Source of the DNA: Candidatus Raymondbacteria bacterium RIFOXYA2_FULL_49_16
GTDB lineage: Bacteria; Fibrobacterota; OXYB2-FULL-49-7; XYB2-FULL-49-35
Reading direction: 5' to 3'
DNA length: 32,548 nt
Assembly (NCBI GenBank): GCA_001789205.1
Contig: MFYT01000080.1
Span: 1-32,548 of the forward strand
Below are positions 10,615 to 30,829 of the stretch, piece by piece (positions within the stretch are counted from its first letter, which is position 1; every line of letters starts with the position of its first letter). The notes under the pieces were generated by a model that was not told the DNA's origin, ran no database searches, and saw only the letters and a program-made list of their open reading frames with translations. Made by a program: the position numbers and the translations under genes.

Positions 10615-11676
10615 TCATTTCCGGAGATACTGGTTCACATTTTTGAGTATTTTGTGCATCTCGCTTATGCACTCGTCGGCAATAATTTTATCCGTTTCAT
10701 TGAACCGGTAGGCAATGCCGCGCCGGCATTCGGCCGCTGCGCGGTAAAAGACCTTTGTCCTCTCATAAATCTTGGCAAGAAAAAGGCGGCACTTCAGTGA
10801 ATTGACACTGTTATTGAATTCTTCGGAATCCGCGGTGTCCATGATATACCGGAAGATCTTCTCTGATTCCGTATTGTTTCCCTGGTAAAAAAGCGCTTCG
10901 GCAAGGCCAAAGGTGAAGGTCCGGTTGTTGGGAAACTGCTTGAGCGTTACGCGCGCAAGGTCAGCCGCCTCATTGTACCGTTTCTCCTCTATCAGTATAT
11001 CAACAAGGACGTTCGCCGCAGCCTCGCGTGAAAAATGGCCATCGGTATTAACCCTCTTCAGTTGTGAAATCCCCAGTTCGCGCTTGTCACCCACGCCCGG
11101 CATCCACCAGAGGGTCTTGGAGAGCTTGCTGCTCCAGTAATAGTAGGTGCCCAGCCCGTAAAGCACATCAACGATGGTGGAGTCCTTTTCGTGGATTTGC
11201 TTGAGGAGGGAAACACCGGTCCATCCGTTCCTGAAGGCGGTAATATATCGCTTGTACCGCGATTCGTAGGTCCCCTTGATGCCATAGGCGCCGCCAAGAA
11301 AAAACATGTTCCATAGGTCGTCGGGCCGCTTAATCATGATGTTCTCGCCGATTTCAATGGCCTTGTCGCAATTTTTATAGAATTCCTGCTCCTTGAAACT
11401 CGAAAAATAGAAAATCATGCGCGATTCGAGGGCCGCGGCCACGAGGAAATATCCGATGGGATGGTCCGGATACCGGTCCTTGATCTTCTCATACATCCTC
11501 TGCGCCTCGTCAAACCGTTCGAGGTTCAGCAGGCGCAATCCCTCCTGGATTTCGGCGTCGAGACCCGCTTCTTCCTTTCCTCCAATGGAAATACTGCCGC
11601 AATAGGCGGGCCCCGGGAGCGCAACGGCCAGAAGAAAAGCCGCCGTTGCGAAAAAAATAGTGATGACTGCGCGCAT
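10615..11676 (-). CDS. Exported TPR-repeat protein
   Basis: The 353-residue protein starts with a signal peptide (hydrophobic residues about 4-25, ending GPAYCGS; the Cys is not in a good lipobox). The rest is helical. TPR-like units can be seen at AQRMYEKIKDRYPDHPIGYFLVAAAL, in the central WYWSSKLSKTL-like region with many aromatics, and at ANVLVDILIEEKRYNEAADLARVTLKQFP and its continuation. It would be a periplasmic protein-interaction scaffold. It is the last gene of the ABC-transporter run, four bases after the small lipoprotein. A weak hairpin and a T8-C-T7 run follow its stop on the minus strand (about 10578-10612) and may end transcription, though the spacing is poor. Confidence 0.75.
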   Translation of the reverse strand: MRAVITIFFATAAFLLAVALPGPAYCGSISIGGKEEAGLDAEIQEGLRLLNLERFDEAQRMYEKIKDRYPDHPIGYFLVAAALESRMIFYFSSFKEQEFYKNCDKAIEIGENIMIKRPDDLWNMFFLGGAYGIKGTYESRYKRYITAFRNGWTGVSLLKQIHEKDSTIVDVLYGLGTYYYWSSKLSKTLWWMPGVGDKRELGISQLKRVNTDGHFSREAAANVLVDILIEEKRYNEAADLARVTLKQFPNNRTFTFGLAEALFYQGNNTESEKIFRYIMDTADSEEFNNSVNSLKCRLFLAKIYERTKVFYRAAAECRRGIAYRFNETDKIIADECISEMHKILKNVNQYLRK

Positions 11677-11680
11677 AGGA

Positions 11681-12031
11681 TTACAAGTTGTATCCGTATT
11701 CCTTGTAGTACCGGTTCCACTTTCCCTGGGAAGGAGAATACCGGTATTTCCGGATTTGTTTCATGAGTATGGTCTTAAAATAATAATATTCAACCACTGC
11801 CTTGTGGGAGAACATGCTGCTTTCTGGAAAATAGGCGTATTCGGTAATACGATAATACGGTCGGTCGAGAAGGGCTTTTTGATCATTACCCCGCACCTCG
11901 GCCGCAATGTAATCAAGGTCATCGTCGCAGATATACATAAGCTTCTCCCGCACTCCCTTTTGCGGCATTCCTATGCAGCCCGCGCACACGCACAGGGCCG
12001 CAACCGCGAGCAGCAGGCGTTTATTCGCCAT
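11681..12031 (-). CDS. Small lipoprotein of unknown function
   Basis: From the ATG at 12031 the product has 116 residues and starts MANKRLLLAVAALCVCAGC, a lipoprotein signal with the acylated Cys at about position 19. The remainder is rich in Tyr, Lys and Arg (YYRITEYAYF, EYYYFKTILMKQIRKYRYSP). No domain is recognised. An ATG at 12103 in the same frame would bury the signal peptide, so it is rejected as the start. The start overlaps the end of the ABC ATPase gene by 11 bases, which suggests coupling and a function near the importer, for example as an outer-membrane accessory. Confidence 0.7.
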   Translation of the reverse strand: MANKRLLLAVAALCVCAGCIGMPQKGVREKLMYICDDDLDYIAAEVRGNDQKALLDRPYYRITEYAYFPESSMFSHKAVVEYYYFKTILMKQIRKYRYSPSQGKWNRYYKEYGYNL

Positions 12032-13139
12032 CGGTAATCCGTACGCCTGTTTCCCTATCGAAAAAGTGGATATGGCGGCCGTCAATGACCACCTGGAGCG
12101 CATCGCCCCGTTTGGGAAGATGTTCAGGGTCGGGTATCATGAAAAAAACCATGTCATGACTATTGAACTTTCCCGTGACCATGAGCCGTTCGCCCAGAGG
12201 TTCATATATCTGGACCTCAACACGGACATCAGTGTCGGAATGGCGCATGCCTTCACGGTCCTTGAAGAAATTGATCTGCTGAGGCCGTATGCCAGCGAGC
12301 ACTTCGCGACCCGTATGGCGCAGTAAAGCCTGACTGCGCCCCTTCTCCATGCACAGGGCCGTATCGCCAATGGTGACCACAGCCTCTCCCCCGGCCTCGG
12401 CAATGCGCGCGGGAAACTGATTCATTGCGGGCGATCCTATGAAATTCCCCACAAAAACAGTGGTCGGCCGTTCAAAAATGCGCATGGGAGTATCGCACTG
12501 GATAAGGCGTCCGTCACGGATCACGGCGATCCGGTCGCTCATGCGGAGCGCTTCCATCTGGTTGTGAGTGACATAGACCGAGGTGCAACCAACATTCTGA
12601 TGTATTCTCTTGAGTTCGGTGGTCATTGATTCGCGCAGTTCCTGATCGAGATTCGAGAGCGGTTCGTCAAGAAGCAGAACATGGGGTTGGAGCACCAAGG
12701 CCCTGCCCAGGGCCACACGCTGGCGTTCGCCGCCTGAAAGCTCGCGGGGAAAGCTCTTCCCTTTTTCGGACAGGTGCAGCAACTCCTTCGCCCATTCGAG
12801 TTTCTCGAAAATCTGGATTCGCGGCAATTTCTGTATCTTGAGGCCAAAGGCAATGTTCTGATCAACGGTCATATGGGGAAAGAGCGCATAGCTCTGGAAG
12901 ACCATGCCAATGTTCCGTTTGCGCGCGGGCACATCGTTCATGAGTCTTCCCCCTATGTGGATTTCTCCCGAGGAAATACTTTCGAGTCCCGCTATCATAT
13001 TGAGGATGGTTGTTTTACCGCAGCCCGATGGTCCGAGCAGGGTAAGAAATTCCCCTTCGCGGATATGCAGGTCTATCCCGTGGATGACCTCTTTTTCCTT
13101 GTACGACTTGGTGATCTGCTTGAGGATGACTTCAGACAT
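12021..13139 (-). CDS. ABC importer ATPase, UgpC/MalK type
   Basis: From the ATG at 13139 the 372-residue protein has Walker A GPSGCGKT (36-43), Q-loop Q82, signature LSGGERQRVALGRAL (134-148), Walker B VLLLDEP (154-160), and switch H192. A C-terminal TOBE-like region (about 250-370) begins at IGSPAMNQFPARI and includes LAGIRPQQI. This is the carbohydrate uptake (CUT1) ATPase layout. It would energise the two permeases from the cytoplasmic side. The frame stays open upstream to 13415, but that stretch is the antisense-frame overlap of the permease and has no ATPase features. The start overlaps the permease stop (TAATG). Confidence 0.95.
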   Translation of the reverse strand: MSEVILKQITKSYKEKEVIHGIDLHIREGEFLTLLGPSGCGKTTILNMIAGLESISSGEIHIGGRLMNDVPARKRNIGMVFQSYALFPHMTVDQNIAFGLKIQKLPRIQIFEKLEWAKELLHLSEKGKSFPRELSGGERQRVALGRALVLQPHVLLLDEPLSNLDQELRESMTTELKRIHQNVGCTSVYVTHNQMEALRMSDRIAVIRDGRLIQCDTPMRIFERPTTVFVGNFIGSPAMNQFPARIAEAGGEAVVTIGDTALCMEKGRSQALLRHTGREVLAGIRPQQINFFKDREGMRHSDTDVRVEVQIYEPLGERLMVTGKFNSHDMVFFMIPDPEHLPKRGDALQVVIDGRHIHFFDRETGVRITDGE

Positions 13140-13978
13140 TATTTGACCGCTCCCGCTGTTAGGCCAGAACGCATGTATTTCTGCAAGACCATGGTGAACA
13201 CAATGACCGGCAGAGACAACAGCATGGCAATGGCCATGAGAATGCTCTGAGGTGGCGCATATGCCATCTTCTGCTTCAAATAAATGGGCAGCGTATTCAA
13301 TTCGCCGAACCCCAGGAGAAAATATGAAAAGATGAATTCGTCCCACGAAAGGAGGAAGGTATAAATTGCCGCGGCGGCAAGACCGGTCGCGGCAAGGGGG
13401 AGCACAATACGCCATAGCGTATAGAATTTGTTCGCCCCGAGTATTTCAGCCTGTTTCTCGAGGTCCTTGGGAATGCTCTCAAAGACTCCCATGGCAATAT
13501 AGATGACGTACGGCAGCGCCAGAAGCGAATGGGCGAGCGCGCCGCCCAGGTAGGTGTCGTGGAGGTGCGCCCGGCTGAATATGACCGCCACCGGGATAAT
13601 AGAGACAATGTCGGGAAAAAGCCGTATGGAGATGAGACCGATGAGCAGCACTGCCTTTCCCGGAATATCGTACCAGGCAAGCACATAGGCCGCAGGCACG
13701 CCCAGCGTCATGGCAATGCAGATAGTAAGCAACGCGATCTTAAAGCTGACCGCGGCTGCGCGGTAGAAATCAGGATAACTGAGGATGTACAGGTAGTTTT
13801 TTAGCGTTGGCGCATAGGGCCAGAGGGGAATAACCTCGCCTCCCGTTATGATGCTTGCCCGGTCGCTGACCGAATACTTGAACATGAAGTAGAGGGGTAA
13901 AAAAACCACGCAGATCATGAGTAACAAAACCAGGAACCAGGCCACGGTGCGGTAATCGAGCCGCCGGATGAATGTCAT
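13139..13978 (-). CDS. ABC importer permease, MalG/UgpE type
   Basis: The 279-residue membrane protein has about six transmembrane segments, the first near residues 12-34 (VAWFLVLLLMICVVFLPLYFM). The cytoplasmic EAA loop reads EKQAEILGANKFYTLWRIVLPLA, the site that docks on the ATPase. Length and topology fit the MalG/UgpE side of CUT1 importers. It starts six bases after the MalF-type permease stop and overlaps the ATPase start by one base. Confidence 0.93.
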   Translation of the reverse strand: MTFIRRLDYRTVAWFLVLLLMICVVFLPLYFMFKYSVSDRASIITGGEVIPLWPYAPTLKNYLYILSYPDFYRAAAVSFKIALLTICIAMTLGVPAAYVLAWYDIPGKAVLLIGLISIRLFPDIVSIIPVAVIFSRAHLHDTYLGGALAHSLLALPYVIYIAMGVFESIPKDLEKQAEILGANKFYTLWRIVLPLAATGLAAAAIYTFLLSWDEFIFSYFLLGFGELNTLPIYLKQKMAYAPPQSILMAIAMLLSLPVIVFTMVLQKYMRSGLTAGAVK

Positions 13979-13984
13979 GGCTGC

Positions 13985-14884
13985 CTACACTTTCACCAGG
14001 AAAAGGCGCGTGCGCTTGAGCGCCCAATAGAGAAGAACGGTACAGGCGACAATGGATAAAACAAGGATGAGCGCAACCACCGCGGCATCACCGCCCCGGT
14101 TCCAGTCGTGGTAGAGTTCCTCAATCAAGGTGCCCAGGAGCCTGAAGCGCCGCGCGAGAAAATAGGGGAAGATGAATTCCTTCCACATCTCAATAGACCT
14201 GATGACCAGCACTGTTGAGATTGCCGGCAGCAGGAGCGGTAACGTGATATACATGAATTTCTGGCGTTCGCGCGCGCCCATGGTTTCAGCGGCGTCGTAC
14301 TGATCCCGGGTTATGGAGTTGAGGCCCGCCAGCAGGATAAGCATGGAGATAGGCATGTCGCGCCATACCTTGCCCACAAGGGAAATGCCCAGCGAAGAGA
14401 CCGCGGACGAACGCCAGTTGATCGGTTCTGAGAGCAGGGCGGGAAAGATCGCGTATTTTCCCATGAGCAGGTTGTTCACATGGCCGTTGGGATAGTCGAA
14501 AAGAATATAAAGGATAATGGCGGTGACCATGGCCGGAATAGCAAGAGGAATGATGAAGATGCTGCGCACCAGCCCCCTGAGGACAAAGACGCGGTAGATG
14601 ACCAGCGCAAGCACCAGGCCGGCAACAAGCTCGAGCGGCGTACCCACAATGACGAACAGCAGTGTATTGATGAAGGCGTTTTTAAACTCACCCGCATTAA
14701 AGACCGAAAGGTAGTTGTGCAGGGAAGGAAACTGCTCCGTGTAATCGGACCCCACGTAGGTGAATGAAAGTTTCACCAGGCATTGGAAAATTATCACCAA
14801 AAACCCGAACAGGAAAAGAAAGGCAGGGAGGAGCATAAGCAGCTCCACCCTGTATTTATAATACTTCCTGGCAAGATCTCTCAT
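13985..14884 (-). CDS. ABC importer permease, MalF/UgpA type
   Basis: The 299-residue inner-membrane protein has about six transmembrane segments (first near 15-35, LMLLPAFLFLFGFLVIIFQCL). Its EAA loop is DAAETMGARERQKFMYITLPLL. It matches the UgpA/MalF-type CUT1 permeases without the large periplasmic loop of E. coli MalF. It lies ten bases after the binding-protein stop and pairs with the MalG-type permease to form the channel. Confidence 0.93.
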   Translation of the reverse strand: MRDLARKYYKYRVELLMLLPAFLFLFGFLVIIFQCLVKLSFTYVGSDYTEQFPSLHNYLSVFNAGEFKNAFINTLLFVIVGTPLELVAGLVLALVIYRVFVLRGLVRSIFIIPLAIPAMVTAIILYILFDYPNGHVNNLLMGKYAIFPALLSEPINWRSSAVSSLGISLVGKVWRDMPISMLILLAGLNSITRDQYDAAETMGARERQKFMYITLPLLLPAISTVLVIRSIEMWKEFIFPYFLARRFRLLGTLIEELYHDWNRGGDAAVVALILVLSIVACTVLLYWALKRTRLFLVKV

Positions 14885-14894
14885 CGTATCGCGG

Positions 14895-16400
14895 TCAGCG
14901 GGCCGGGTACCGGTCTTTTAAAATTTGCTTCTCAATGTCGGCGTATTTTCCCGAGAGTTTCTGGGACAATTCGGCTGCGTTCACCGGCGCGGCCTTGTTC
15001 TTGCCATAGGCGTCGACACAAAGTTCGTACCACGCCTCAATGTAGTTTTTCCCGATTTCCGAGTATTCCTTTACGAGAGGAACTGTCGAATACTGGTTTA
15101 TTTCAATCTGGGCTACCGACGTCCTGAAAATATCGCCCACCCACGCCAGCTCAAAGGCGCCGGAAATATTATTCAGGATGTCCTTGCGCACCGGAATAAT
15201 GCCGAACTTAGCGCATTCAATTGCCTGGTTGTTGTGGGTGGTAATGAACCTGGCAAGCTTGTACGCCAGCGTTTTGTCGGGCGAGGTCTTGGGGATGCCC
15301 CACCACCAGCCGCCTGTGGATATTTTCTTAGAACCAACTTTCTTGTAGGTGCCATCCTTGTTCAGGGCAAACGAGACCGCGAGGGGCATAGTGGCAATAC
15401 CCATGTCGTCCGGGTCCTTGAGGTAACCCTGCATTTCCGGATCTTCATCCCAGCCGTGGATCAGAAAACAGTCAATCTGCTGGGCAATGGTAAGAAAGAC
15501 TTTGCCGTCCTTGATAGCCTCGTAGATATTGGTTCCGCGCCACGGATCTTCCCACATGCCCGGATTAAAGATGTTGTTTTTGACGTACACGGCTTCCCAT
15601 TCAAACATATCGACAATGGGGTCTGTGTTCATTTTCATGATATCGTCGGACGTGGCACCAAACTGGATCGCCTGATCAACAAGGCCCAGCGCCGTTCCTT
15701 CGTAGCGGTCGCCGCGGTGCGCAACCCGGGGCATAAAAACATTGGTGTTAAAATATTTGGTGTGGGCCCAGTAGTAGCCAGCAACCAGCACGTCGTAAAA
15801 ATCCCACAGCTCGGGATCGGATTCGAGCGCATAGTCCTTGGGAAGGCCATACCCGTTCTGCTTCTTGAGTTCCTTGTTCAAGTCTTTCTCGTACTTCTTC
15901 CAATTGGCCACGGCTTCCTGCACCTTTGATTTCAGGTAAAGCATGACCCTGGTTTCAAGCTTGCGGGGAATATAGTAGGGTTTCTCGTTAATATATCCAA
16001 GGCCAAGGGCCAGGGGATGGTATTCGGCAAGGTCCTGCTCAAGCGTGGCGTGATCAACGATGTTATCGAGCGGCTCCATGAGCTGCTTGCCCACCAAAAC
16101 GCGGGTCATTTCAAAGGGGACCTTCACCAGCGCTATATTGGGATTTTTTTTCTCTTTTTGGAGATCAAGTGCAGTCTCTATATACCACATTTTATCAAAA
16201 CTGGCAATATTGACCTTGCAGTTGTTCTCTTTCTCGAAGGGATTCAGGATCTCGTTCCTGAAATGCTTCTCCTGGTTCTGCAACATATGGATGAGGACCG
16301 TGATCTCTTTCTGCTGTGGTCCCTTGGCGCCGCATCCGGCCGCCACAAATGAAACCAGCGCTCCCGCAACCAGCGCCAGCGCAATCCGTAGAAACATCAT
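14895..16400 (-). CDS. ABC importer solute-binding lipoprotein
   Basis: The preferred ATG at 16400 has a good AAAGGAG site six bases before it and gives 501 residues. The N-terminus ends in the lipobox VAAGC (Cys23), so the mature protein is a lipoprotein. Mature sequence starts ITVLIHMLQNQEKHF..ILNPFEKENNCKVNI, the usual beginning of cluster-B/family 1 extracellular binding proteins. Near the C-terminus STGGWWWGIPKTSPDKTLAYKLARFI is the typical late block. At about 480 mature residues it is larger than most sugar-binding proteins (about 400). The ligand cannot be read; sugars, glycerol-3-phosphate or glycerophosphodiesters are possibilities for this transporter class. It precedes both permeases and the ATPase in a normal importer order. 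Confidence 0.9.
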   Translation of the reverse strand: MMFLRIALALVAGALVSFVAAGCGAKGPQQKEITVLIHMLQNQEKHFRNEILNPFEKENNCKVNIASFDKMWYIETALDLQKEKKNPNIALVKVPFEMTRVLVGKQLMEPLDNIVDHATLEQDLAEYHPLALGLGYINEKPYYIPRKLETRVMLYLKSKVQEAVANWKKYEKDLNKELKKQNGYGLPKDYALESDPELWDFYDVLVAGYYWAHTKYFNTNVFMPRVAHRGDRYEGTALGLVDQAIQFGATSDDIMKMNTDPIVDMFEWEAVYVKNNIFNPGMWEDPWRGTNIYEAIKDGKVFLTIAQQIDCFLIHGWDEDPEMQGYLKDPDDMGIATMPLAVSFALNKDGTYKKVGSKKISTGGWWWGIPKTSPDKTLAYKLARFITTHNNQAIECAKFGIIPVRKDILNNISGAFELAWVGDIFRTSVAQIEINQYSTVPLVKEYSEIGKNYIEAWYELCVDAYGKNKAAPVNAAELSQKLSGKYADIEKQILKDRYPAR

Positions 16401-16446
16401 TGAAGACTCCTTTCGTTCCTGGTAATTCTGCAATATTCTTTACTTT

Positions 16447-16968
16447 TTATGCTTTTTTAAGGTCCTTAACAAGGTCGTTACCCAGTGTCTGGGTAAGCAG
16501 AATAATCTCGTTGTCCATACGCCTGATTCGTTCAGAGAGGATCTCGAGCATGTTGTAGGCGATTTCAGGGTTGGTCAAAATTACTTTCTTAAATTCGTCC
16601 TTGCGGATCTCGAGCAGCACCGATTTCTCGTTGGCCACGGCGCCCGCGGTCCGGTGAGTGCGGCCGAAAAGACCCAGTTCGCCAAAGCACTTGCCCTCGC
16701 TGTGGTTGGCAAGGAGATATTGTTTTCCCTCTTTTTCTTTGATGATTTTGAGCGATCCCTGTTTTATTATATAAAGAGAGTCACCTAAATCCCCTTCGCG
16801 CGCAATGATATCACCGGTATTGCAGGCGATTTCGCGGGCTATCTCGGCGATGACGCCGAGACATTCGGTATCCACGTTCCTGAAGAGCTCCACCTCCTTG
16901 AGGAAAAGTACCCGTTCGAGGATTGTGAAGACCCGCTGGTCGTCATTTTCAAGGGTGTCAGGCTGCAT
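16447..16968 (-). CDS. Cyclic-nucleotide-binding domain protein
   Basis: From the ATG at 16968 the product has 173 residues. A single cNMP-binding beta-barrel (about 24-140) includes GDIIAREGDLGDSLYIIKQGSLKI and the phosphate-binding cassette FGELGLFGRTHRTAGAVA (95-112). The cassette has the Glu (E97) and Arg (R106) that contact ribose and phosphate in CAP-type domains; T107 replaces the Ser of CAP. There is no HTH domain; the last 40 residues are probably helical. It would sense cAMP, cGMP or another cyclic nucleotide and act through a partner, not DNA. The ATG overlaps the end of the NTT-HEAT gene by 11 bases, so that protein is the likely partner. The frame runs up to 17115 but has no domain features there. 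Confidence 0.85.
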   Translation of the reverse strand: MQPDTLENDDQRVFTILERVLFLKEVELFRNVDTECLGVIAEIAREIACNTGDIIAREGDLGDSLYIIKQGSLKIIKEKEGKQYLLANHSEGKCFGELGLFGRTHRTAGAVANEKSVLLEIRKDEFKKVILTNPEIAYNMLEILSERIRRMDNEIILLTQTLGNDLVKDLKKA

Positions 16969-19588
16969 TTTTATATACCTTATGTTCGATGTACAGGGCA
17001 ATCCATGAAATCCACCGGTTGTCGAGCGCCTCGAAATACCTGATGGCCGTGGAGAACGATCCGGGCTCGTTTTTCCAACGGTACGACCCGATCTTGAGCA
17101 ACTCGCGTTCGCCATACCCCTCGAGAATGGGGATCAGGTACCTCCCGATGGTCCTGTCGCCGAACGCCTCTATTAGCTCAATAATATTCGCCTTCTTACG
17201 CTCGTCAAGAAGCTTAAAATCGCGCTCGATGGTGAGCAGCGCACCTGACGGATCGAGAAGCGAGAGCATGTCAAAGACGAACATGCTGAACCGTTTCCGT
17301 TTTTCGGTTACCGCGGTCTTAAGAAGATCAATCATTTTCTGCGTCTTCCTGATGTCTGAAACCGCCGACCGCAGGGTCGCCTGCACCGCGATGTCGTAGT
17401 ACCGGTACGCGTCGAGATAGATGGACCGCATCTCGTCCATGGCCATGGCCACTAACTTATTCTTGACTTCATCGCTCTGGCGCACAGGCGCATTCTTCTC
17501 CCGGAGCTTCCGCAGCGATAGCAATTTCATTACATCGATGAGCGAAAAAGCGATCCGTTTGCGCTCAGTGGACAGGAAAAGCCCCTCAAAGATAGGATAG
17601 AACCGGAAGTTCACCCTGCTGAGACCCTCCACAATCGCGCGCTCCTTGGCGCGATCGCGGTTCTGCTCGAGAAAAGAAACCAACGACACAATGCTCCGCT
17701 CATTGTCGAACTGCAGGAGCGCGTTGACCGCGGCGTACCAGAATTCTTTGGTCTGAGAATGGATTATTTTCTCCAGGCGGCTGGAAAAGGATGAGAGCTT
17801 GAGATGGCCGATGAGCCTAATGCCAGGACACTTCTCGTCCATGCGCTCCGAATCGAGCAAGGCCGCGATCTTGGCATGCACCACCTCTTTCTCGTCGGCA
17901 TTGAGCGCGGGATAGAGAAGGCGGACCACCTCCTCAAAAACGAGTGAGTCATTGTCATAGATAAAACGGGTCAGAGAATAGCTCCCCTTATCAATATACG
18001 GATTGGTCCGTATTGACCTGATAGTACCGGCCCTTATGACAGGATTTTGTTCTTCGAGCAAGTTACGCAAGAACCCGCGCACCTCAACGCTATCAAAAGT
18101 GCTAAGCGAACGGGCAATGATCTCCTTAATCCGGTCGCTTTCTTCAAAGAACTTGTTACGCAATAATTCAAAGGCCGCATGGCTCCCGGAATACTCAAGA
18201 TATTTTATCACAACTCTTTTTAAATCAAAATCTTGAGTGTCAAAAGCCTGCAAAATTAAAGATAATATTTTTTTATTGTTTTTACCACTTATTTCTCTTT
18301 TGATCATGGTACGCAAATCATCTTTTTGCGCTTCGAATTCCTCCTTGAGGAGAATAATGCGGTATTCTTTTTTAAGCTTGATGACGAGGATTGCCATGGC
18401 AAGGGAGCATCCGGCAAGGACCAGCGCATGAACCGATAGATCGAGTTTCGCCATAAGAAGCAGGCCTGCCGAGGCTATGGCAAGCGGTTTTACGATACCC
18501 TCAAGGATAAGTTTGCCCCTGCCCCTGAACTTCCGGCTGAAGGCTGAGAAGAAAATCTGATAATTGGACGAAAAGAGCGACTCGAAAAGGAACTGCCGCA
18601 AAATATAGAACACAATGACAAAAGCGAACATGATATCAAGGGCGCGTACATGGAGCGCATAGAGGCCCATGGAACCGAGAAACATGACAATGGGCAGCAC
18701 CAGCATGGAATTGGTAACGCCGATGCGCTTGCTAATGTCGCTGGTATACGTAAATTGGAAAACAATGATAAGCAGGGTAATGATAAGGTAAATACTGAAT
18801 TTGAACGACAGAAATCCGTCTGAATTGAACTGGCCGGAAAGGTAGAATTTTTTACTGAGCTCGCGGGTAAAAATAAAATCGATATTGAAAACCAGGATAA
18901 AGACCAGGAAGTAAACCCCGGCCATGATGACAACCGCCTTTTCGCTGAAAATACTTAATGACTCGTCGCTGGTCTGGCTTTGCAGCTGCGTTTTGTCCGG
19001 GGCGTTGAGCTTGAATCCGAATTCACGCACCAGCCGGTTGACCAGAAAAAAAGGGACAATGAGCATGGCCGCCCAGAGCCAAATGAGGTTTTCAGTGTGG
19101 ATATAATGGACCACTTTGTCGGAAATAATGGTTGATACGAGCCCCCCCAGCAGTCCGCCTCCCGCAATGAGGGGAAAAAGCGATTTGCTTTTACGCGTGT
19201 CGCAGATGTCGTTGGCGATTATCCAAAAAATTGAGAAGAGGGAGAGTTTGCTGATATACGACAGGGAATAAAGTACGACGCTGGACCAGCCGTACCAGCG
19301 GGTCAGCAGCCCGCATCCAGCCACCAGCACCGCATAACTCACGGAAAGAACCCGCACCAACTGCCACCGGTGGACGCGGTCGACAAAGAGAAACATAATG
19401 AAGGTGACCACAAAAAGGAATGCCGCGTTAAGCTGATAGAGTCCGGGCAGCGCATTGACCGTCAGATGTTTGATAACCAGCGCCTCGGACAAATAGTCGC
19501 CCAAAATGGCTGCACAATAAATGGCGATAAGGAACACCAGAAGGTGATAAAACGCCTTCCTGTTTTCCTGGGAGAGGCTGCCGAACAA
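16958..19588 (-). CDS. NTT/ADP-ATP-translocase-like membrane protein fused to HEAT repeats
   Basis: Counting from a TTG at 19588 the product has 876 residues. Residues about 12-410 form an MFS-like membrane domain with roughly 11-12 segments. The block FWIIANDICDTRKSKSLFPLIAGGGLLGGLVS is characteristic of the Npt1/Npt2 nucleotide-transporter-like family. Residues about 415-870 are soluble helical repeats of HEAT type (for example GSHAAFELLRNKFFEESDRIKEIIARSLSTF). Substrate is unknown; NTT proteins of intracellular bacteria exchange ATP and ADP, but free-living fusions are uncharacterised as far as I know. A strong GGAGGA site lies 14 bases before the TTG but only six before an in-frame CTG at 19597, so the true start may be CTG. 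The gene lies just after a terminator and is coupled to a cyclic-nucleotide-binding protein. Confidence 0.8.
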   Translation of the reverse strand: MFGSLSQENRKAFYHLLVFLIAIYCAAILGDYLSEALVIKHLTVNALPGLYQLNAAFLFVVTFIMFLFVDRVHRWQLVRVLSVSYAVLVAGCGLLTRWYGWSSVVLYSLSYISKLSLFSIFWIIANDICDTRKSKSLFPLIAGGGLLGGLVSTIISDKVVHYIHTENLIWLWAAMLIVPFFLVNRLVREFGFKLNAPDKTQLQSQTSDESLSIFSEKAVVIMAGVYFLVFILVFNIDFIFTRELSKKFYLSGQFNSDGFLSFKFSIYLIITLLIIVFQFTYTSDISKRIGVTNSMLVLPIVMFLGSMGLYALHVRALDIMFAFVIVFYILRQFLFESLFSSNYQIFFSAFSRKFRGRGKLILEGIVKPLAIASAGLLLMAKLDLSVHALVLAGCSLAMAILVIKLKKEYRIILLKEEFEAQKDDLRTMIKREISGKNNKKILSLILQAFDTQDFDLKRVVIKYLEYSGSHAAFELLRNKFFEESDRIKEIIARSLSTFDSVEVRGFLRNLLEEQNPVIRAGTIRSIRTNPYIDKGSYSLTRFIYDNDSLVFEEVVRLLYPALNADEKEVVHAKIAALLDSERMDEKCPGIRLIGHLKLSSFSSRLEKIIHSQTKEFWYAAVNALLQFDNERSIVSLVSFLEQNRDRAKERAIVEGLSRVNFRFYPIFEGLFLSTERKRIAFSLIDVMKLLSLRKLREKNAPVRQSDEVKNKLVAMAMDEMRSIYLDAYRYYDIAVQATLRSAVSDIRKTQKMIDLLKTAVTEKRKRFSMFVFDMLSLLDPSGALLTIERDFKLLDERKKANIIELIEAFGDRTIGRYLIPILEGYGERELLKIGSYRWKNEPGSFSTAIRYFEALDNRWISWIALYIEHKVYKNAA

Positions 19589-19612
19589 GGAGACCAGAAA
19601 AATCCTCCGCTT

Positions 19613-19650
19613 AAAAAAAAAGCAGAATCTTATGCGCGGTAAGATCCTGC
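19613..19650 (-). terminator. Intrinsic terminator of the envelope-machine operon
   Basis: An 11-bp stem (19622-19632 with 19640-19650, one G-U pair) around a 7-base loop is followed on the minus strand by nine T residues (19613-19621). It comes 24 bases after the stop of the outer-membrane barrel gene. The next gene's ribosome-binding site begins directly after the T run. Confidence 0.85.
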
Positions 19651-19674
19651 TTTAAATGACACGTATGGACAGCG

Positions 19675-21027
19675 TTAGAACGAGTAGGTCGCCGTTATCC
19701 TCGAGAAGACGTGATGGCTGTTCCCACTGATCAGGTTCCCGAACTTATACAGGAAATCCTCGGCCACAACGCAGTCAATTTTCAGTTTCTCCTCAATGTT
19801 GAGCCCAATGCCGCCGCCGACATGGTCGCTTGCGGTCATGTCGGCCTCGGGATTTGTTTTAAGCATAGTAAGATCGCTCTGGTTTGAGTAACTTCCCCAA
19901 AGAATCTTGCGGAAACCAACCCTGAGGACCAGCCAGTCCCATACAACATTGCGTTCTATGCCAAAACTTAAAGGGATGTTGAGCGCGCTAATGTCTTTTA
20001 GTCTTCCATTCTGTTTGGGGCTTTCGGTGTTGCTCCAGTTCACTTCTGTTCCAGCCCAGAAAAAGCCGCGATCGAGCGTCACGTTTGCGCCTATACCGCC
20101 AATAACCTCGTTTTTGGTATAGTTGCGGATTGCCACATGTTTGTATTTTACAACGGGAACCAACTCGCCGTTGAGCGATACCAGGGTTGAGAAGAGGCGG
20201 GCGCTGGCGAAAATAGAGAGGTCCTGATCGTTATAGTCGGGAATGGCGTATTTTCCCAACTCGACGCTTTTGTTACCGCTGTATTGCATGATAGCAATGC
20301 CCAGGGAAACTTCGAGGTCCATATTCTGGGATACAGGCATATTAACACCAAGGTCGCCACGATACACGCCCGAGCTCCACGACATATCGCCTGTCTTTTC
20401 GGAAGCATTGAGCAACATAAGACTATCATATGCCATACCTGAAGAATCAGTGGCTGTAAGAATGCCCGCGTCTATGAGCTCCTGTTTTGAATTGTTTAAA
20501 TCCTTGAACGGGACATCAATGGTCTGCTTGGTTGCATAGAAATGACCGCCAAGCATGACGCCATTGTCAAGTGTATATCCGATAAAAAAATCTGAGTTAG
20601 GCACCACTGGTTTCGGGATAATGTGTCCATCGGGATGCAACGCATCCACATTTGCGCGTGCAGCCCCCATAAGAACATCCACTAATTCGTTCTGATGGTT
20701 CATAATGGCGCCCAGCGTGAGCATGGGATAGCGCGTTTCAGCGTTTTTGTCCTTGTTCAGGGAAAACGCAAGAATGCCGCCTCCAAAAGGTTCGGCAGGG
20801 TCCTGGTTCTTGTAGTTGGTGTTCGAATCACTGAACTCCGTGATGCGGCCCGGCTCGCCTATCAGAAAATTGGGGTAAATATTTATATTGGCTGGATTTT
20901 CGAAGATGCTGACATCGTCCATAAAAAAGGTTGCGCTTTTTCCCATTGACTCCACCCGCGCGTTGGTGGCGAAAAGGGCTGCGGCCCCTATGAGAACCAC
21001 TGCTAGAACACACACTGTTTTTTTCAT
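19675..21027 (-). CDS. Outer-membrane beta-barrel protein of unknown family
   Basis: The 450-residue protein has a signal peptide (MKKTVCVLAVVLIGAAALFA). The mature start NARVESMGKSATFFMDDVSIFENPANINIYP recalls the N-terminal plug region of FadL/PorV-like barrels. Alternating hydrophobic strands follow, and the C-terminus FSRITATYSF ends in the Phe expected for outer-membrane insertion. I do not recognise the exact family. A good AAGGAGCGATAT site precedes the ATG. It is the last gene of the nine-gene operon, after the TonB-like gene and before a terminator. A barrel encoded beside the TonB-like protein could be its outer-membrane target; this is inference. Confidence 0.75.
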   Translation of the reverse strand: MKKTVCVLAVVLIGAAALFATNARVESMGKSATFFMDDVSIFENPANINIYPNFLIGEPGRITEFSDSNTNYKNQDPAEPFGGGILAFSLNKDKNAETRYPMLTLGAIMNHQNELVDVLMGAARANVDALHPDGHIIPKPVVPNSDFFIGYTLDNGVMLGGHFYATKQTIDVPFKDLNNSKQELIDAGILTATDSSGMAYDSLMLLNASEKTGDMSWSSGVYRGDLGVNMPVSQNMDLEVSLGIAIMQYSGNKSVELGKYAIPDYNDQDLSIFASARLFSTLVSLNGELVPVVKYKHVAIRNYTKNEVIGGIGANVTLDRGFFWAGTEVNWSNTESPKQNGRLKDISALNIPLSFGIERNVVWDWLVLRVGFRKILWGSYSNQSDLTMLKTNPEADMTASDHVGGGIGLNIEEKLKIDCVVAEDFLYKFGNLISGNSHHVFSRITATYSF

Positions 21028-21063: not shown

Positions 21064-22035
21064 CTACTGTGAAAATGCAAACGGATAGGTGACCGTCGCA
21101 ATTCCGCACTTGCTGCAGGGTCCGAATTTCCAAGTCTTAATTTTCTCCACGACAGACTGCTCGAGCGTGGGGTCGCCCATGGTCGATTCGACTAGCTTAC
21201 ACATAAGTACCCTGCCCGACTGGGCAATGGTGAACTTGACCGTAATTTTACCTTTGAGCCCCGGTTTGTCGCGCAGTCGTTTGTTGTACTCGTGACGCAA
21301 GCCTCCAATGTGCTGCATGACCACCCGGTAGATGTCCTGCGGGTTGCGGCCGTTGAGTCCGTCCTGCGAATTCCAGAATGACGCGGAGTTGGGAAGGTCG
21401 ATGTCGCGCGACCTGGAACGAAGGCCTGAAACTCCCGCAGCCTCGCCTGCCAGACCGTTGAGCAGGTCATCAATTCCGCCAGCGCCGCCGCCGCCCGTAT
21501 ATCCCATGTTGAACTGGCCCCCTGCCTTTCCCATGCGCCCTACCGCTGACTGTCCAGCAGTCTTAAGCCCGCCCACATTATCGAGTATCGCGTCGAGGTC
21601 CTTGGAAAAGACATTGTTCTGGAAGGCCGCGCCAGCGACTGCATTGCTCGATGCCTTGCCTGAAACAATTGCCAAAAGTCCTTTCTGCGTCACCTTCTGA
21701 CGTATATCACCCTTGCCCACGCCCCCGGTCGCTTTTGCGCGCAGTTCCTGGGCTTTGAGCACCTTTTTCTTCATTTTATCTTCTTTTTTCTTCTCTTTTT
21801 TCTCTTCCTTCTTCTCGTCCTTCTTCACATCGACCACCAGTTTGGCGGTAAGCTCGGGGGGAAGGTTTTCAAAGAAATCAGAGACAACTTCCACTACTTC
21901 CATGGTGGAGAACCAAACCCCGAGCATCATGCCAATGGCAAGGAAGATAGCCATAATGACGCCCATACGGCGGTCGTCGTCGACCAAAAAAATGTCTTTG
22001 CGCTGGACAACAGCGACCAAACGTTGATCGGACAT
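21064..22035 (-). CDS. TonB/TolA-like energy transducer, AgmX/PglI C-terminal type
   Basis: The 323-residue protein has a 23-residue cytoplasmic start and one transmembrane helix (24-43, MGVIMAIFLAIGMMLGVWFS). A charged Lys/Glu-rich segment (71-90) follows, then a Gly/Ala-rich flexible middle (about 100-205). The C-terminal domain (about 230-323) carries NPQDIYRVVMQHIGGLRHEYNKRL, then KGKITVKFTIAQSGRV and VEKIKTWKFGP. That last part matches the AgmX/PglI C-terminal domain known from myxobacterial gliding GltJ/AgmX and many envelope TonB relatives. It would couple the ExbB/ExbD motor to periplasmic or outer-membrane partners. A Cys pair (C307, C310) near the end is unusual. It starts four bases after ExbD-like protein 1, with a GGAGG site in the end of that gene. 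Confidence 0.88.
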   Translation of the reverse strand: MSDQRLVAVVQRKDIFLVDDDRRMGVIMAIFLAIGMMLGVWFSTMEVVEVVSDFFENLPPELTAKLVVDVKKDEKKEEKKEKKKEDKMKKKVLKAQELRAKATGGVGKGDIRQKVTQKGLLAIVSGKASSNAVAGAAFQNNVFSKDLDAILDNVGGLKTAGQSAVGRMGKAGGQFNMGYTGGGGAGGIDDLLNGLAGEAAGVSGLRSRSRDIDLPNSASFWNSQDGLNGRNPQDIYRVVMQHIGGLRHEYNKRLRDKPGLKGKITVKFTIAQSGRVLMCKLVESTMGDPTLEQSVVEKIKTWKFGPCSKCGIATVTYPFAFSQ

Positions 22036-22039
22036 ACGG

Positions 22040-22519
22040 CTATTCCTCCCTTCCCATCACGGCGAACCTGATGTGGTTGTATCCCACGGTGCCGGAGGTG
22101 TTCATCAACTTGAAAAGCACGTCGAACTCGATGTTTTTATCGAGCTGGAACACGACTTCGCCTTTGACTCTCTGCAATGCCCCGATTTTGACCATGTTCT
22201 CTTCCTGGCGCATGCCGATCTCGAGCTTTTCCTGCACCGCCTCAACCACGATGTCCTGGTTCTCGCGCACCGCGTTGGTCCGGATCACGGGAATATTATC
22301 GACCATGATCCATTCGTTAGTGACCGCAACCATAAGACTAGTTTCTTTGGGACTCTCCTTGCTGGTGGAATTGGGAAGTACCAGGTTATCGGCATTGGTA
22401 AGCAGCTGTCCCTCGGCCGAATAGCTCTTCAGCAAAAAGACCAGAATGATGGTCATCATGTCCATGAGGGACGTAATGTTCATACTGCTCGCCAGTTTCG
22501 GTCTCGCATAGCGTGCCAT
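22040..22519 (-). CDS. ExbD/TolR-type motor protein 1 (canonical Asp)
   Basis: The 159-residue protein has the ExbD layout: a short basic cytoplasmic start, the motif MNITSLMDMMTIILVFLL with D20 in the place of the essential proton-carrying Asp (ExbD D25), one membrane helix (about 17-34), and a periplasmic domain. That domain includes the VKGEVVFQLDKNIEFDVLFKLMNTSGTVGYNHIRFAV segment, comparable to the ExbD/TolR fold. It would form the plug or stator of an ExbB-type proton channel. An AAGGAG site lies upstream; the gene sits nine bases after ExbD-like 2. Confidence 0.88.
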   Translation of the reverse strand: MARYARPKLASSMNITSLMDMMTIILVFLLKSYSAEGQLLTNADNLVLPNSTSKESPKETSLMVAVTNEWIMVDNIPVIRTNAVRENQDIVVEAVQEKLEIGMRQEENMVKIGALQRVKGEVVFQLDKNIEFDVLFKLMNTSGTVGYNHIRFAVMGREE

Positions 22520-22528
22520 GATGTCTCC

Positions 22529-23365
22529 TTATCCGGCCAACTTGCCGATAGAAATTTTCGGGAACCCGAACTCCCTGCAGATATCCATGACGTGGATAAT
22601 TTTATCAAACACCACGTCGTCCTCGGCAACAACCTTGATTTCACCGGCGTCAGGAACATTGGGGTAGTTGGAATAGATGCGCATGAGCCTGCTTGCCAAT
22701 TCGTCGTAGAGGGTCAGTTCTTTTATAAAATATTCAGCAGGGTCCCTCACAATTTCCATCCGTCGGTTGAGCATATTCAACACATAGACCGTATCGCCGA
22801 CATTTGGCAACTGGTTCAGCACCGCGCCAGCGCTGTTCGTCAGGGTCTCGTTGAGTTTATTCCCAAGCGCCTGCTGGACAATACCGGTGTCGTCTTCGCT
22901 TTGCTTGGTCACAGCATATAGCAATATTTCATCGCGCTCATACAAGGTAAGTCTGCGTCCAGGGTCCTGCGGACAGAGCGGCAGGTCCTTCTTCGTCGCC
23001 TTGGTGATCGGAAAAATATATTCCTCTTGATGCGCACTTCCCTTGGGAAAATTATACTTGTACTTATGGAACTCGCGGACAAAGGTGGTGGGCAGCATTG
23101 CCCCCTTGGCGCCCAACCGCACACCTTCGTCAGTGATGAAGACCGTAAGCAAAAGCCCCTCGTCCTCCTTGTCCTTCTGCTGCACCGGCTGGTTCATCAT
23201 CTGAACCTCGGGCAGATTTACATCGAGGATTTTAATGGATGCGAAGGAGGCGCACAGGAGCAAAAACGGGATGAGGTTCGAGAAGAGATTCATCATGGGC
23301 GTGAGGTTCATCTCAGCGCTCTCGACCGACATCCCGCGCCTTTTGCGCGGATTTTTCTTGGCCAT
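22529..23365 (-). CDS. ExbD/TolR-type motor protein 2, long, Asn at the Asp site
   Basis: The 278-residue protein starts with a basic tract (AKKNPRKRRG) and then MNLTPMMNLFSNLIPFLLL (19-37), which aligns with the ExbD segment INVTPFIDVMLVLL. The catalytic Asp position is N26. One membrane helix (about 22-44) is followed by a periplasmic region of about 230 residues, well above the usual 100. It ends in an ExbD-like AGEIKVVAEDDVVFDKIIHVMDICREFGFPKISIG. An insertion of about 100 residues (about 70-195) with many charges separates the halves. The protein may be structural rather than proton-conducting. It lies six bases after the ExbB-type gene. Confidence 0.85.
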   Translation of the reverse strand: MAKKNPRKRRGMSVESAEMNLTPMMNLFSNLIPFLLLCASFASIKILDVNLPEVQMMNQPVQQKDKEDEGLLLTVFITDEGVRLGAKGAMLPTTFVREFHKYKYNFPKGSAHQEEYIFPITKATKKDLPLCPQDPGRRLTLYERDEILLYAVTKQSEDDTGIVQQALGNKLNETLTNSAGAVLNQLPNVGDTVYVLNMLNRRMEIVRDPAEYFIKELTLYDELASRLMRIYSNYPNVPDAGEIKVVAEDDVVFDKIIHVMDICREFGFPKISIGKLAG

Positions 23366-23371
23366 GGGTTA

Positions 23372-24019
23372 TTATTCCCCTCCAATGAGGATATTGATGA
23401 GTTTTGATGACTTTTCGTCCATTTCCTCGATGATTCGGTCGGTCTGAGCGGATATGACACCGTGCGCAAAGAGGGTGGGGATACCGACCAGAAGGCCGAA
23501 GAAGGTGGTTGCCATGGCGACCGAGATACCGGTTGCCAGGGCTTGGGCGCGCTGGGCAGCCGGAACATTGGCAACCGCGTCGAATGCGAGAATGAGGCCG
23601 AAAATGGTTCCCAGAAGTCCAAGCAGCGTTGCTACGTTGGCAAGCATGACCAGCTGCGGGGTATACCTGAGGACCTTGGGCGTCTCGGTGAGAAAAATCT
23701 CGTCCACAGCCTTGTTCATGGCCTTTTCGCCCTTGTCTTTGTTCTCAATGATGGCAGCAACGGTCTTTGCGAGGGGCATATTGAAACCCTTGGCAAACTT
23801 GAGCGCGCGGGCATGGTCACCGGTTTTGAGAATCTGGAAAAAATCGCTCATAAATTTCTGGCGGCTGAGACCGCACTTGATGACGAGAAAATAGAAACGT
23901 TCAAAAACAATGGCGAGTGCGAGCATGGCGGGAATGATGATGGCCCACATTGACCATCCGCCAGGGCCCTGAAACCCCTGGACAAGCGCTTTGAAGAGTG
24001 CTCCGAAACTGGTACCCAT
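23372..24019 (-). CDS. ExbB/TolQ/MotA-type proton channel protein
   Basis: The 215-residue inner-membrane protein has three membrane helices (about 24-47, 122-150 and 163-190). The block VMLANVATLLGLLGTIFGLILAF and the block ISVAMATTFFGLLVGIPTLFAHG are the conserved pore helices of the MotA/TolQ/ExbB family, with the polar Thr residues at 138 and 171-172 that line the channel. Length is slightly short of ExbB, with no long N-terminus. A strong AAAGGAG site lies in the 44-base gap after the SH3-like gene, the largest gap in this operon. It would form the pentameric stator with the ExbD proteins. Confidence 0.92.
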   Translation of the reverse strand: MGTSFGALFKALVQGFQGPGGWSMWAIIIPAMLALAIVFERFYFLVIKCGLSRQKFMSDFFQILKTGDHARALKFAKGFNMPLAKTVAAIIENKDKGEKAMNKAVDEIFLTETPKVLRYTPQLVMLANVATLLGLLGTIFGLILAFDAVANVPAAQRAQALATGISVAMATTFFGLLVGIPTLFAHGVISAQTDRIIEEMDEKSSKLINILIGGE

Positions 24020-24063
24020 GTGCGATACTCCTTTCTTAAAACTTGTAGTGTGTGTAGATAGTA

Positions 24064-24558
24064 TTATTTCAAATCAAACTCTTTTTCAACCTTTTCGGGC
24101 GTGAATTTCACATCCTTATAATAATAAATTTCATTCTCCCATTCAAACTCTTCTCTCACGACGTCTCTTTTATAGAGCGGATCGAGCAGGAAATCCTTTG
24201 CCATGCGGATTGGCTTGAAATTGTCGTTCTCGAAATCGAGAATATAGACCGGGTCGACATTATCAAGATATCCGAGCACAGACACCTCTTTCATGTATAA
24301 TCGCTGTTCATTTTCCGGTTTCAGAAACTCCCTGCTTACCCAGCCTTTTTTTCCATCAACAGTTTCAATGAGCGTTTTGCCGTCGCGTTCCATGGTTGCC
24401 GTCACTGCCTGGCCCCCTGACAGAGAAAAAAGCGGCTTTTCGTACATCTTTCGTATCTCATTGAGATACACCGGGACCGAATCCGCCGCGACCACCATGG
24501 TCCACTGGGCCTGAACCGTGACGCACACAAGTATCAGGAACCCTGCCACTATTCGCAT
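24064..24558 (-). CDS. Exported SH3-like domain protein
   Basis: The 164-residue protein has a signal peptide (MRIVAGFLILVCVTVQA). Residues about 20-82 look like a bacterial SH3-like domain: VVAADSVPVYLNE, then GQAVTATMERDGKTLIETVDGKKGWVSREFLKP, with the typical GWV strand. Bacterial SH3 domains often bind peptidoglycan or protein ligands. The remaining 80 residues are acidic and aromatic-rich (FEWENEIYYYKDVKFTPEKV) and not recognised. It lies seven bases after the large TPR gene and before the motor genes. Confidence 0.7.
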   Translation of the reverse strand: MRIVAGFLILVCVTVQAQWTMVVAADSVPVYLNEIRKMYEKPLFSLSGGQAVTATMERDGKTLIETVDGKKGWVSREFLKPENEQRLYMKEVSVLGYLDNVDPVYILDFENDNFKPIRMAKDFLLDPLYKRDVVREEFEWENEIYYYKDVKFTPEKVEKEFDLK

Positions 24559-24565
24559 GTGCGGC

Positions 24566-27500
24566 CTAACGTCCCTTCAGTTCGCGTATCTCCTCGGCAA
24601 GCCGTTCCATTTCCCTTTTTGCGCTCTCCTCAAGTCCGCGTAAAATAGATATCTTTTCCATGATGGGTATGCTATTGTCTTGATAGATGGTGCCAATGGC
24701 CTTCAGGGAGCGTTCAAAAGCCTGGTCTGAAAAGCCTCCTACCGCAACACCGCTACCCTGCCCTGAAGCAGCTGTCTGTTGTTGGGGTTTTGGAGGCTCA
24801 CCGATGACGATGGAGATAGCCTGGTTCTGAGGATCACGGACCTCGAGTTCCTTGCGCATGCGTTCGACCCAGCTATTGTTGACATAGATTGCCGCGCATT
24901 CTTTAATCCCTGTCTCGAACACAGGTGTGCATTTTTCCGTGAGCTTTTTCACCATTTCGTCGATCTGAAGCTTGTATTCATCATATTCCTGGGTGCCCTT
25001 GGGAAATGGTATGGGCGCGGCCGAAAAAATCTGCCCATTCTCTATGTGCGAGAAGCCGACCTGATACCAGCATTGCGCATACTTGTCCTTTGATTGCTGC
25101 ACCCATTCGTTGTCAATGCCCATGGTGTTGCCGAATTTTTCAACATTGATTTTATAATAATTGGCCGCTTTTTCATAATAAGGCGGCAGCGCTTCATTTA
25201 TTTTAACTTTTGCATAGGCGGCCTTAAACTGGTCCTTTTCGATAATGGGCTGGTTTTTGACCGCTTCCATGAGGTTCCAAAATATTTCACCGCACATAAA
25301 GGTGGCGTGCGTGGTCCACTTATCGGTCTGCAACGCGATGCAATCGGTGAAAAACTTCAAGGGAACGGTAATGGCGTCGTTTTTAGCTTTGAGCTTTGTC
25401 TCAATCTCCTTCATTCCGTCTTTTCCCTTTTTAGACGTAAAAAGATCGAGCTTGGCGTATTGCTCAAAAGCGCGTTCGCCCAGGATATAATCGGCCTCGG
25501 CCGCATACTGGGGGTCAATGCCAAATTTTTCGCCATCCTTAGCATGAATATCTATAATATTGCGATACATCTTTTCCTCTTCGACCCTGTCGCCCATGGC
25601 CTGAAAGGACTTTGAAGCCTTGTAGAGAGCAAAGACCACGCGTGAACGGTCGCTGGCAAATCCCTTGGCATAGTCGATATAGCTTTCAGCTATTTTCTTG
25701 TTGTCGTTCAATTTTTCGTAACAGAGGGCAATAGAGAAAACCGCTTCGGCCGTATACTCCGACTGAGGAAAATCCTTCTTGAGTTTGTTGTACAGACCAA
25801 TGGCGTCCTCGTATCGTTTCGCCTTTTCGTATATGCGGCCCGCATTGTACAAAGCGCCTGGCGCCTCTTTCTCCGCGCCAACAAACCGGGTTTTGTCCTT
25901 TTTATTTTCGAGAAAAGCGTCGTAGACCTGTTCGTACACTTTTGCCGACATAAGAAGGTCTTCGGCCTTGTCGTACATGTCCGCAGCGCGGAACATGCTG
26001 GGTACAGCCTCTGCGTCCGCGGGAAAGGCGTCCTTGAATTTCAGGAAGATGCGGGCCGCCATGATATACTGCTGGCCATCTTCATAGTTCTTTGCCGCGC
26101 GGAGCAGCGCGTCCTTTCGCAGTTTTGACTCGGTGAATTTATCGAAAACGCGCTCAAATTCGCGAGCGGCCTCCTCGTACATCTTTCCTTCCTGATACGC
26201 GTTTGCTCCGTTGAAAAGCGATTTGTCGGCATTGGAAAAATCGGGATAGTCGAGTACAATCCGTTTGAAAATGTCAGCCGCACCAGAATAGTCGCCCTCT
26301 TTCTGCTTTGACTGCGCCAGCTGGAACATGGCGGCGCATATGGATTCGAGGAGCTTTTTCTTTTCATCGAGCGATGTTGGGTTGGTGGTATGATAGAGCC
26401 GCTTGTAGGTGTTGATCGCATCCTCGAATTTTCCGGCGTTCAGATAACTCTTGGCAAGGTTTTCAAGGCTGGGCCTGAATATCTTTTCGTGGTCAGGGAA
26501 CTTTTCAACGATGTACTGATACCCTTCAAGGGACTTGTTAAATTCCTTAGCATTGAAATAGAGGTTTGATTCAAGAAAAGCCACTTCCGCTGAATGTTTG
26601 GAAGCGGGGAACCTGTTCCGGAAATCCCTGATATAATTGAGATAGGCCTGGGTTTCGGGAAGGGCAAAACCCTGGTTGCCCACGGTGGTATCGGAAAGAC
26701 CGCGCGCCTTGAGCGCTTTCTGCATGATATGGTCGTAGCAGATGACCGCTGCAAAACCCGCTTCTTCAGGATTGACCGCGATTGTCCTGACCTCTTCACG
26801 GATATCGGAACGCCCCTGGTCCTTGATGTCACGCGCCTCTTTTTTCTTTTTCTCGAGCAGCTCTTCAGCGGCTTTTGAACGGTCAGGATACTTTGTAGTA
26901 TCTTCGCGCGACACCCAGTCGTATTCTGTTGCTGCCTCTTCCCACCGGTCCATGAGAGAATCGCTGAGCAGTTCGGCAAGGAAGTAATGGAAAGTGTAGG
27001 CGTTCCATTTTTCACTGGGGAAACGGCTCACGTAGGTCTTGTAGCCATCAATGGCCTTAAGGCCGTATTGGAGGGCTTCCTTTACCTGGCCCGAGTCTTT
27101 CCTGATCATGTAGAGCTTATGATAGTAGATGGGGATAATGGCCGCCGCTTCCTGGATATATTCCTTGGCCTTGGCGACCTTTTCCGGATAATTTGCATAG
27201 GATTTTTCCCACATGCTGCCCGGACCATAGTCCTTCATCATACGTTCGCGCAGGTTATTCGCGGTCTCATATTCCTTCTCAATGATGTAGCAGTCGATGA
27301 GGGCCTTGATTGCAACAGGCGCGTCGATATAATTGGGGCTGTGCTTGAGGAGAAAGTTCAGCGATTTGATGGCTTCTGACACGTTGTCGTGGTCGCGGTT
27401 TTTGAGCCCAACAGTGTAAATGACAAGGTCCTGGTAGGGCCGGCCTCCCATTTTATCAAAAAATTCAAGCGCTTTTTCAGCCCCGCCTTCGAGTTCTGAA

Positions 27501-28369: not shown

Positions 28370-28389
28370 ACGTGATAATTCCTTGCAGT

Positions 28390-30810: not shown

Positions 30811-30829
30811 AGAATAAACCCCGTTTTTA

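Follow-up and report, generated by a model that had tools for sequence, protein, structure and literature searches.

Two overlapping genes of the window, by which we mean the whole 32,548-nucleotide stretch of DNA that was analysed, encode an NTT-like membrane domain with a HEAT-repeat tail (NTT-HEAT) and a separate cyclic-nucleotide (cNMP) sensor. We propose that this pair is the known NTT-HEAT-cNBD protein encoded by two genes, in which the cNMP sensor is predicted to control the membrane domain in support of an adjacent uptake system, a reading to which we give an even chance of being right. Split and fused NTT-HEAT-cNBD forms in free-living bacteria were described by Major, Embley & Williams (2017, PMC5381601), whose sequence set includes one Fibrobacteres sequence, who placed NTT-HEAT proteins in a monophyletic clade and who proposed control by cAMP as a guess; the fused proteins from other phyla that the earlier note mentioned are those published in that study. 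The window pair has the NTT domain, the C-terminal HEAT repeats and the cNBD as next gene by which the family is defined, and its domains, their order and the existence of split and fused forms are all as described there. What is new in comparison with Major et al. is the context of a solute-binding protein (SBP) and an ABC importer, a conserved terminator, the loss of the pair as a cassette and a second locus type, all in Fibrobacterota. Neither solute-binding nor ABC proteins are named in the text of Major et al., and after a light search of other literature we do not firmly claim priority for this context, which concerns Fibrobacterota loci only. Proteins of the NTT-HEAT(-cNBD) kind have a wide distribution that includes cyanobacteria, Chlamydiae and oomycetes and are functionally uncharacterised, and the conserved link to an SBP/ABC importer provides a concrete lead to the role of the NTT-HEAT-cNMP module.

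Re-reading the window bore out the open reading frames, strand, lengths and 11-base overlap given in the earlier note (Table 1). On the minus strand, the NTT-HEAT coding part runs from 19588 to 16961 and that of the cNMP gene from 16968 to 16450, with the stop codon extra in both cases, and the 3' end of the former shares the 11 bases ATGCAGCCTGA with the 5' end of the latter. TTG 19588 is the first standard start of the NTT-HEAT frame and lies 15 nt after GGAGG, and the candidate start CTG 19597, 3 aa apart from it, has GGAGG 6 nt upstream. We also found both protein features that had been read from the letters, namely the Npt1/Npt2-type block ANDICDTRKSKSLFPLI in the membrane domain and a HEAT tail, which gave a Pfam HEAT_2 match (E 3.8e-9). 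The AlphaFold2 model (pLDDT 85) has 12 long helices in residues 7-422, then a helical solenoid of about 450 residues up to residue 872. The source genome measures 5.4 Mb, a free-living size that agrees with the earlier suggestion that the host need not be an intracellular parasite.

Table 1. Features of the window around the NTT-HEAT and cNMP genes.
Feature	Position	Strand	Remarks
TPR protein	10615..11676	-	last conserved gene of the SBP/ABC unit
Conserved 140-aa ORF	11681..12103	-	SBP/ABC unit; no Pfam match
ABC ATPase, MalK/UgpC-like	12021..13130	-	true start probably near 13130, since the extended ORF, from 13415, runs into permease 2
ABC permease 2, MalG/PotC-like	13139..13978	-	BPD_transp_1
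ABC permease 1, MalF-like	13985..14884	-	BPD_transp_1
Solute-binding protein, SBP_bac_8	14895..16433	-	lipoprotein-like N-terminus (FVAAGC)
cNMP-binding-domain protein, 173 aa	16447..16968	-	ATG overlaps the NTT-HEAT stop by 11 bases; PF00027, E 1.6e-21
NTT-HEAT protein, 876 aa	16958..19588	-	TTG start, CTG 19597 possible; residues 7-422 12-TM NTT/MFS, 425-872 HEAT solenoid
Intrinsic-terminator-like hairpin	19619..19653	-	14 pairs and a T run; lies in the gap from OMP to NTT-HEAT, a placement that relatives share
Outer-membrane porin-like protein (OMP), PopA-like	19675..21027	-	last gene of the upstream ExbB-ExbD-TonB unit
TonB_C/GltG-like	21064-22035	-	upstream unit
ExbD	22040-22519	-	upstream unit
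ExbD, second copy	22529-23365	-	upstream unit
ExbB/TolQ-like	23372-24019	-	upstream unit, whole 21064..24019

The label NTT-like is not one that Pfam could provide, since the window protein had no match to the TLC model (PF03219) at E<0.1. This model matched only 2 of the 29 NTT-HEAT family members and is too narrow for this branch, and it is the profile and fold searches that settle membership. By using HMMER, we ran a family profile built from the membrane part of 28 sequences against PDB chains, and it matched CpNTT1 (9j3n) at 6.4e-14 and AtNTT1 (9j3j) at 2.3e-13, the next match being at 0.078. With the AlphaFold2 model of the window protein, the five best PDB matches in Foldseek were all five NTT entries, from Arabidopsis (AtNTT1, 9j3j/l/m) and Chlamydia pneumoniae (CpNTT1, 9j3n/o). 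Profile and fold thus agree in placing the membrane domain soundly among the NTTs, and the earlier NTT-like label holds. The window protein has the 12-TM fold in common with AtNTT1 and CpNTT1 at 12-14% sequence identity in the fold alignment, and in this comparison the KVKGK region corresponds to RGRGK. In contrast to the window system, these two proteins have neither a HEAT tail nor a cNMP partner. TLC-positive proteins of 431-480 aa, the canonical size of a single-domain NTT, were also seen in the Fibrobacterota genomes G036 (C117:23054-23980) and G154 (contigs C177 and C302).

The substrate site was judged by four AtNTT1 residues from mutagenesis, K155, E245, E385 and K527, cited in PMC4256464 as important for transport (adding 84 to the chain number gives the full AtNTT1 numbering, an offset deduced from all four residues then fitting the right letters). 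The window protein keeps none of the four in place. In the HMMER alignments, E245 corresponds to Tyr111, an invariant Tyr of the family, E385 to Asp237 and, in one of two alignments, K527 to Ile371; at the K155 position, aligned by eye in a region outside the HMMER alignment, the window protein has Gly49, and 9 of 10 fused relatives have Lys. Four residues ahead of the K527 position stands an invariant lysine, Lys367, which the CpNTT1 alignment pairs with the K527 lysine. Also, at about 25% overall identity, nearly all of the 29 sequences keep K114, D127, R331, K359 and K367, L038 being the main exception. Judged from these alignments, the membrane domain appears to be under selection, with a charged site that is conserved yet different from the ATP/ADP-exchange set. 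Since the charged residues for ATP/ADP exchange are not in place, ATP transport by the window protein is unlikely. The earlier note had warned that transport of nucleotides was not assured and had proposed to compare the membrane domain with ATP transporters at key residues; this comparison justifies its caution.

The cNMP protein belongs to PF00027 by its fold and by the Glu and Arg of its phosphate-binding cassette, FGELGLFGRTHRTA, in which E97 and R106 are intact and were correctly numbered from the start. Among 27 aligned cNMP domains of relatives, the cassette Arg is kept in all 27, and the Glu position holds Glu in 22 and Asp in 4. The whole 5.4-Mb source genome contains 12 cNMP domains and three class III cyclase matches (PF00211).

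By searching the whole phylum, we found NTT-HEAT in 25 of 168 Fibrobacterota genomes, and the named records of relatives belong to Fibrobacterota (Chitinivibrionales, Chitinispirillaceae and others). A single-sequence search of genome contigs with the window protein found no relatives, and a plasmid search gave, among the matches listed, matches to the cNMP domain only. The earlier note had taken the two genes for a single functional unit, a view that depends on their occurring together in relatives, and had called for a search for fused and split versions. Both forms, fused with cNMP (about 1060 aa) and split, do exist across Fibrobacterota genomes. Among the 30 Fibrobacterota NTT-HEAT loci with enough downstream sequence, the cNMP part is fused or is the next gene in 27, and one SBP family comes next after NTT-HEAT(-cNMP) in 24. 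The adjacency of NTT-HEAT and cNMP is not chance, because 27 of 30 loci have the pair versus 12 cNMP domains in a whole genome.

In the NTT tree, which is midpoint-rooted, the window groups with its closest relative, G167, for which the contig breaks off within the NTT-HEAT gene. Their sister group is a clade of 13 rows with 100/100 support, all complete members of which are fused, and other split forms lie outside both groups. Derivation of the fusion from a split state looks like the simpler reading of this tree, whose midpoint rooting keeps it short of proof, and it agrees with the order of events in Major et al. (2017, PMC5381601). On the same topology, fission of the gene in the lineage of the window would be the less simple reading. 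In G026, the NTT-HEAT-cNMP frame (L037 5036-8223) is broken inside the membrane domain into ORFs of 275 and 764 aa, through either an assembly error or a real split.

The window locus belongs to a first type (type A), with the order OmpA/beta-helix, TPR-OMP, TPR, ExbB, ExbD, ExbD, TonB_C, OMP, NTT-HEAT(-cNMP), SBP, permease, permease, ATPase, 140-aa ORF, TPR, which is kept in more than 10 genomes from several families. A strict scan placed a terminator-like hairpin at the OMP>NTT junction in 9 of 13 loci (12 of 13 folded sequences by eye) and at the OMP>SBP junction in all 3 loci without NTT; among the other junctions scored, about 148 in all, only 3 gave one. This conserved predicted terminator between OMP and NTT-HEAT indicates that NTT-HEAT-cNMP is the first cistron of the SBP/ABC unit; because of it, a reading in which the NTT gene belongs to the ExbB-TonB operon was rejected. 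In the SBP tree, type A SBPs form one clade (100/99) with the window basal, which matches the NTT tree. Three genomes (G036, G037 and G038; L116-L118) have a type A locus without NTT-HEAT and cNMP in which SBP, permeases and ATPase are intact. Because the SBPs of these genomes are nested inside the type A clade, the trees point to loss of NTT-HEAT-cNMP as a cassette, and natural genomes with and without it offer a ready comparison.

In the second locus type (type B), NTT-HEAT, cNMP and SBP are followed by a TPR protein, a protein of about 400 aa, an HTH protein (HTH_18) and a transglutaminase-like protein (e.g. L083 2831-12765; also, with parts missing, L122-L127, L134 and L135), and no ABC permease homologue was detected beside the SBP. 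Within the available sequence, G021-G023, G034 and G039 (L124-L127, L135) have cNMP-SBP-TPR without an adjacent NTT-HEAT, and G016, G017 and G006 (L122, L123, L134) have SBP-TPR with neither NTT-HEAT nor cNMP. One small clade (G021, G022, G023) has NTT-HEAT with no cNMP or SBP adjoining. NTT-HEAT, cNMP and SBP recur as a triad in both locus types, and the source genome's own paralogue has it too. Thus, the three often travel together and none strictly needs the others; a strict need of the SBP for NTT-HEAT is ruled out by the SBPs that persist without it. Since L116-L118 keep the type A locus without the cassette and there are SBP-TPR loci that lack both NTT and cNMP, NTT-HEAT-cNMP is dispensable for the neighbouring SBP system. 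In the paralogous locus (G000:C96, L089 8160-12835; also L031), the second NTT-HEAT gene is followed by an overlapping cNMP gene, an SBP gene and then a MetH-like gene.

Together, the sequences fit best with a transporter or transceptor that is under cNMP control and serves the SBP system. In the mechanism that we favour, cAMP or cGMP made by the class III cyclases of the cell would bind E97/R106 of the cNMP protein, which would dock on the cytoplasmic HEAT solenoid. Nucleotide binding would alter that contact and thereby set the activity of the membrane domain, whose probable role is to transport or sense some anionic metabolite, though not ATP/ADP, and which would so aid the adjacent uptake system. 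By analogy, control of a membrane transport module by a cytoplasmic cNBD is plausible, because SLC9C1 and the CNG/HCN/SthK channels carry such a domain. These proteins were among the top Foldseek matches of a fused relative, the SLC9C1 match having a low TM-score (0.1) and covering parts only; unlike the window system, they have unrelated membrane domains and no HEAT solenoid. If the proposal is true, an ATP/ADP-carrier fold in free-living bacteria serves a role other than energy parasitism.

The NTT-like domain could instead have ceased to transport and act as a transceptor, sensing a solute while HEAT/cNMP relays the signal to the adjacent ABC importer or to regulators. We regard this as doubtful: its place as first cistron of the ABC unit would suit a relay, as would a cassette loss that leaves SBP, permeases and ATPase intact in L116-L118, but near-invariant charged residues inside membrane helices are expected of a substrate site, even if a sensor could share them. 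Transport of nucleotides (ATP/ADP or NAD) under cAMP control, as suggested by Major et al. (2017), is decidedly unlikely in view of Gly49, the invariant Tyr111 and, in one of two alignments, Ile371 at the K155, E245 and K527 positions, and of a free-living genome without evident need for ATP import; the NTT fold, the profile similarity, Asp237 at E385 and the nearby Lys367 speak in its favour.

A closer partnership, in which the SBP lipoprotein hands its ligand over to the NTT-like domain and cNMP/HEAT gates it, would make of NTT-HEAT-cNMP and the SBP one machine, a cyclic-nucleotide-gated MFS transporter fed by a periplasmic SBP that in type A would be shared with the ABC permeases. The adjoining triad of type B, with no permease homologue detected beside it, and the recurrence of the triad in both locus types and the paralogue would fit, whereas SBPs persist without NTT-HEAT both with ABC permeases (L116-L118) and with none (L122, L123, L134). 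We know of no precedent for such a transporter and consider it very unlikely. Least probable of all, in our judgement, is that the cNMP protein is a cytoplasmic sensor for another target, merely co-transcribed with NTT-HEAT: a cNMP gene does stand beside the SBP with no adjacent NTT-HEAT in the available sequence of G021-G023, G034 and G039, but throughout one clade cNMP is fused to the HEAT end.

Elsewhere in the window, large TPR and OmpA/beta-helix proteins precede the ExbB/ExbD/ExbD/GltG-like TonB_C/OMP unit (21064-32329, minus strand). The OMP family is present in 155 of 168 Fibrobacterota genomes, which makes this unit look like part of the core envelope machinery in the phylum. Also, at 819-1385 on the minus strand there is a weak match of AbiEi antitoxin type (E 2e-4), which narrowly misses the Pfam cut-off.
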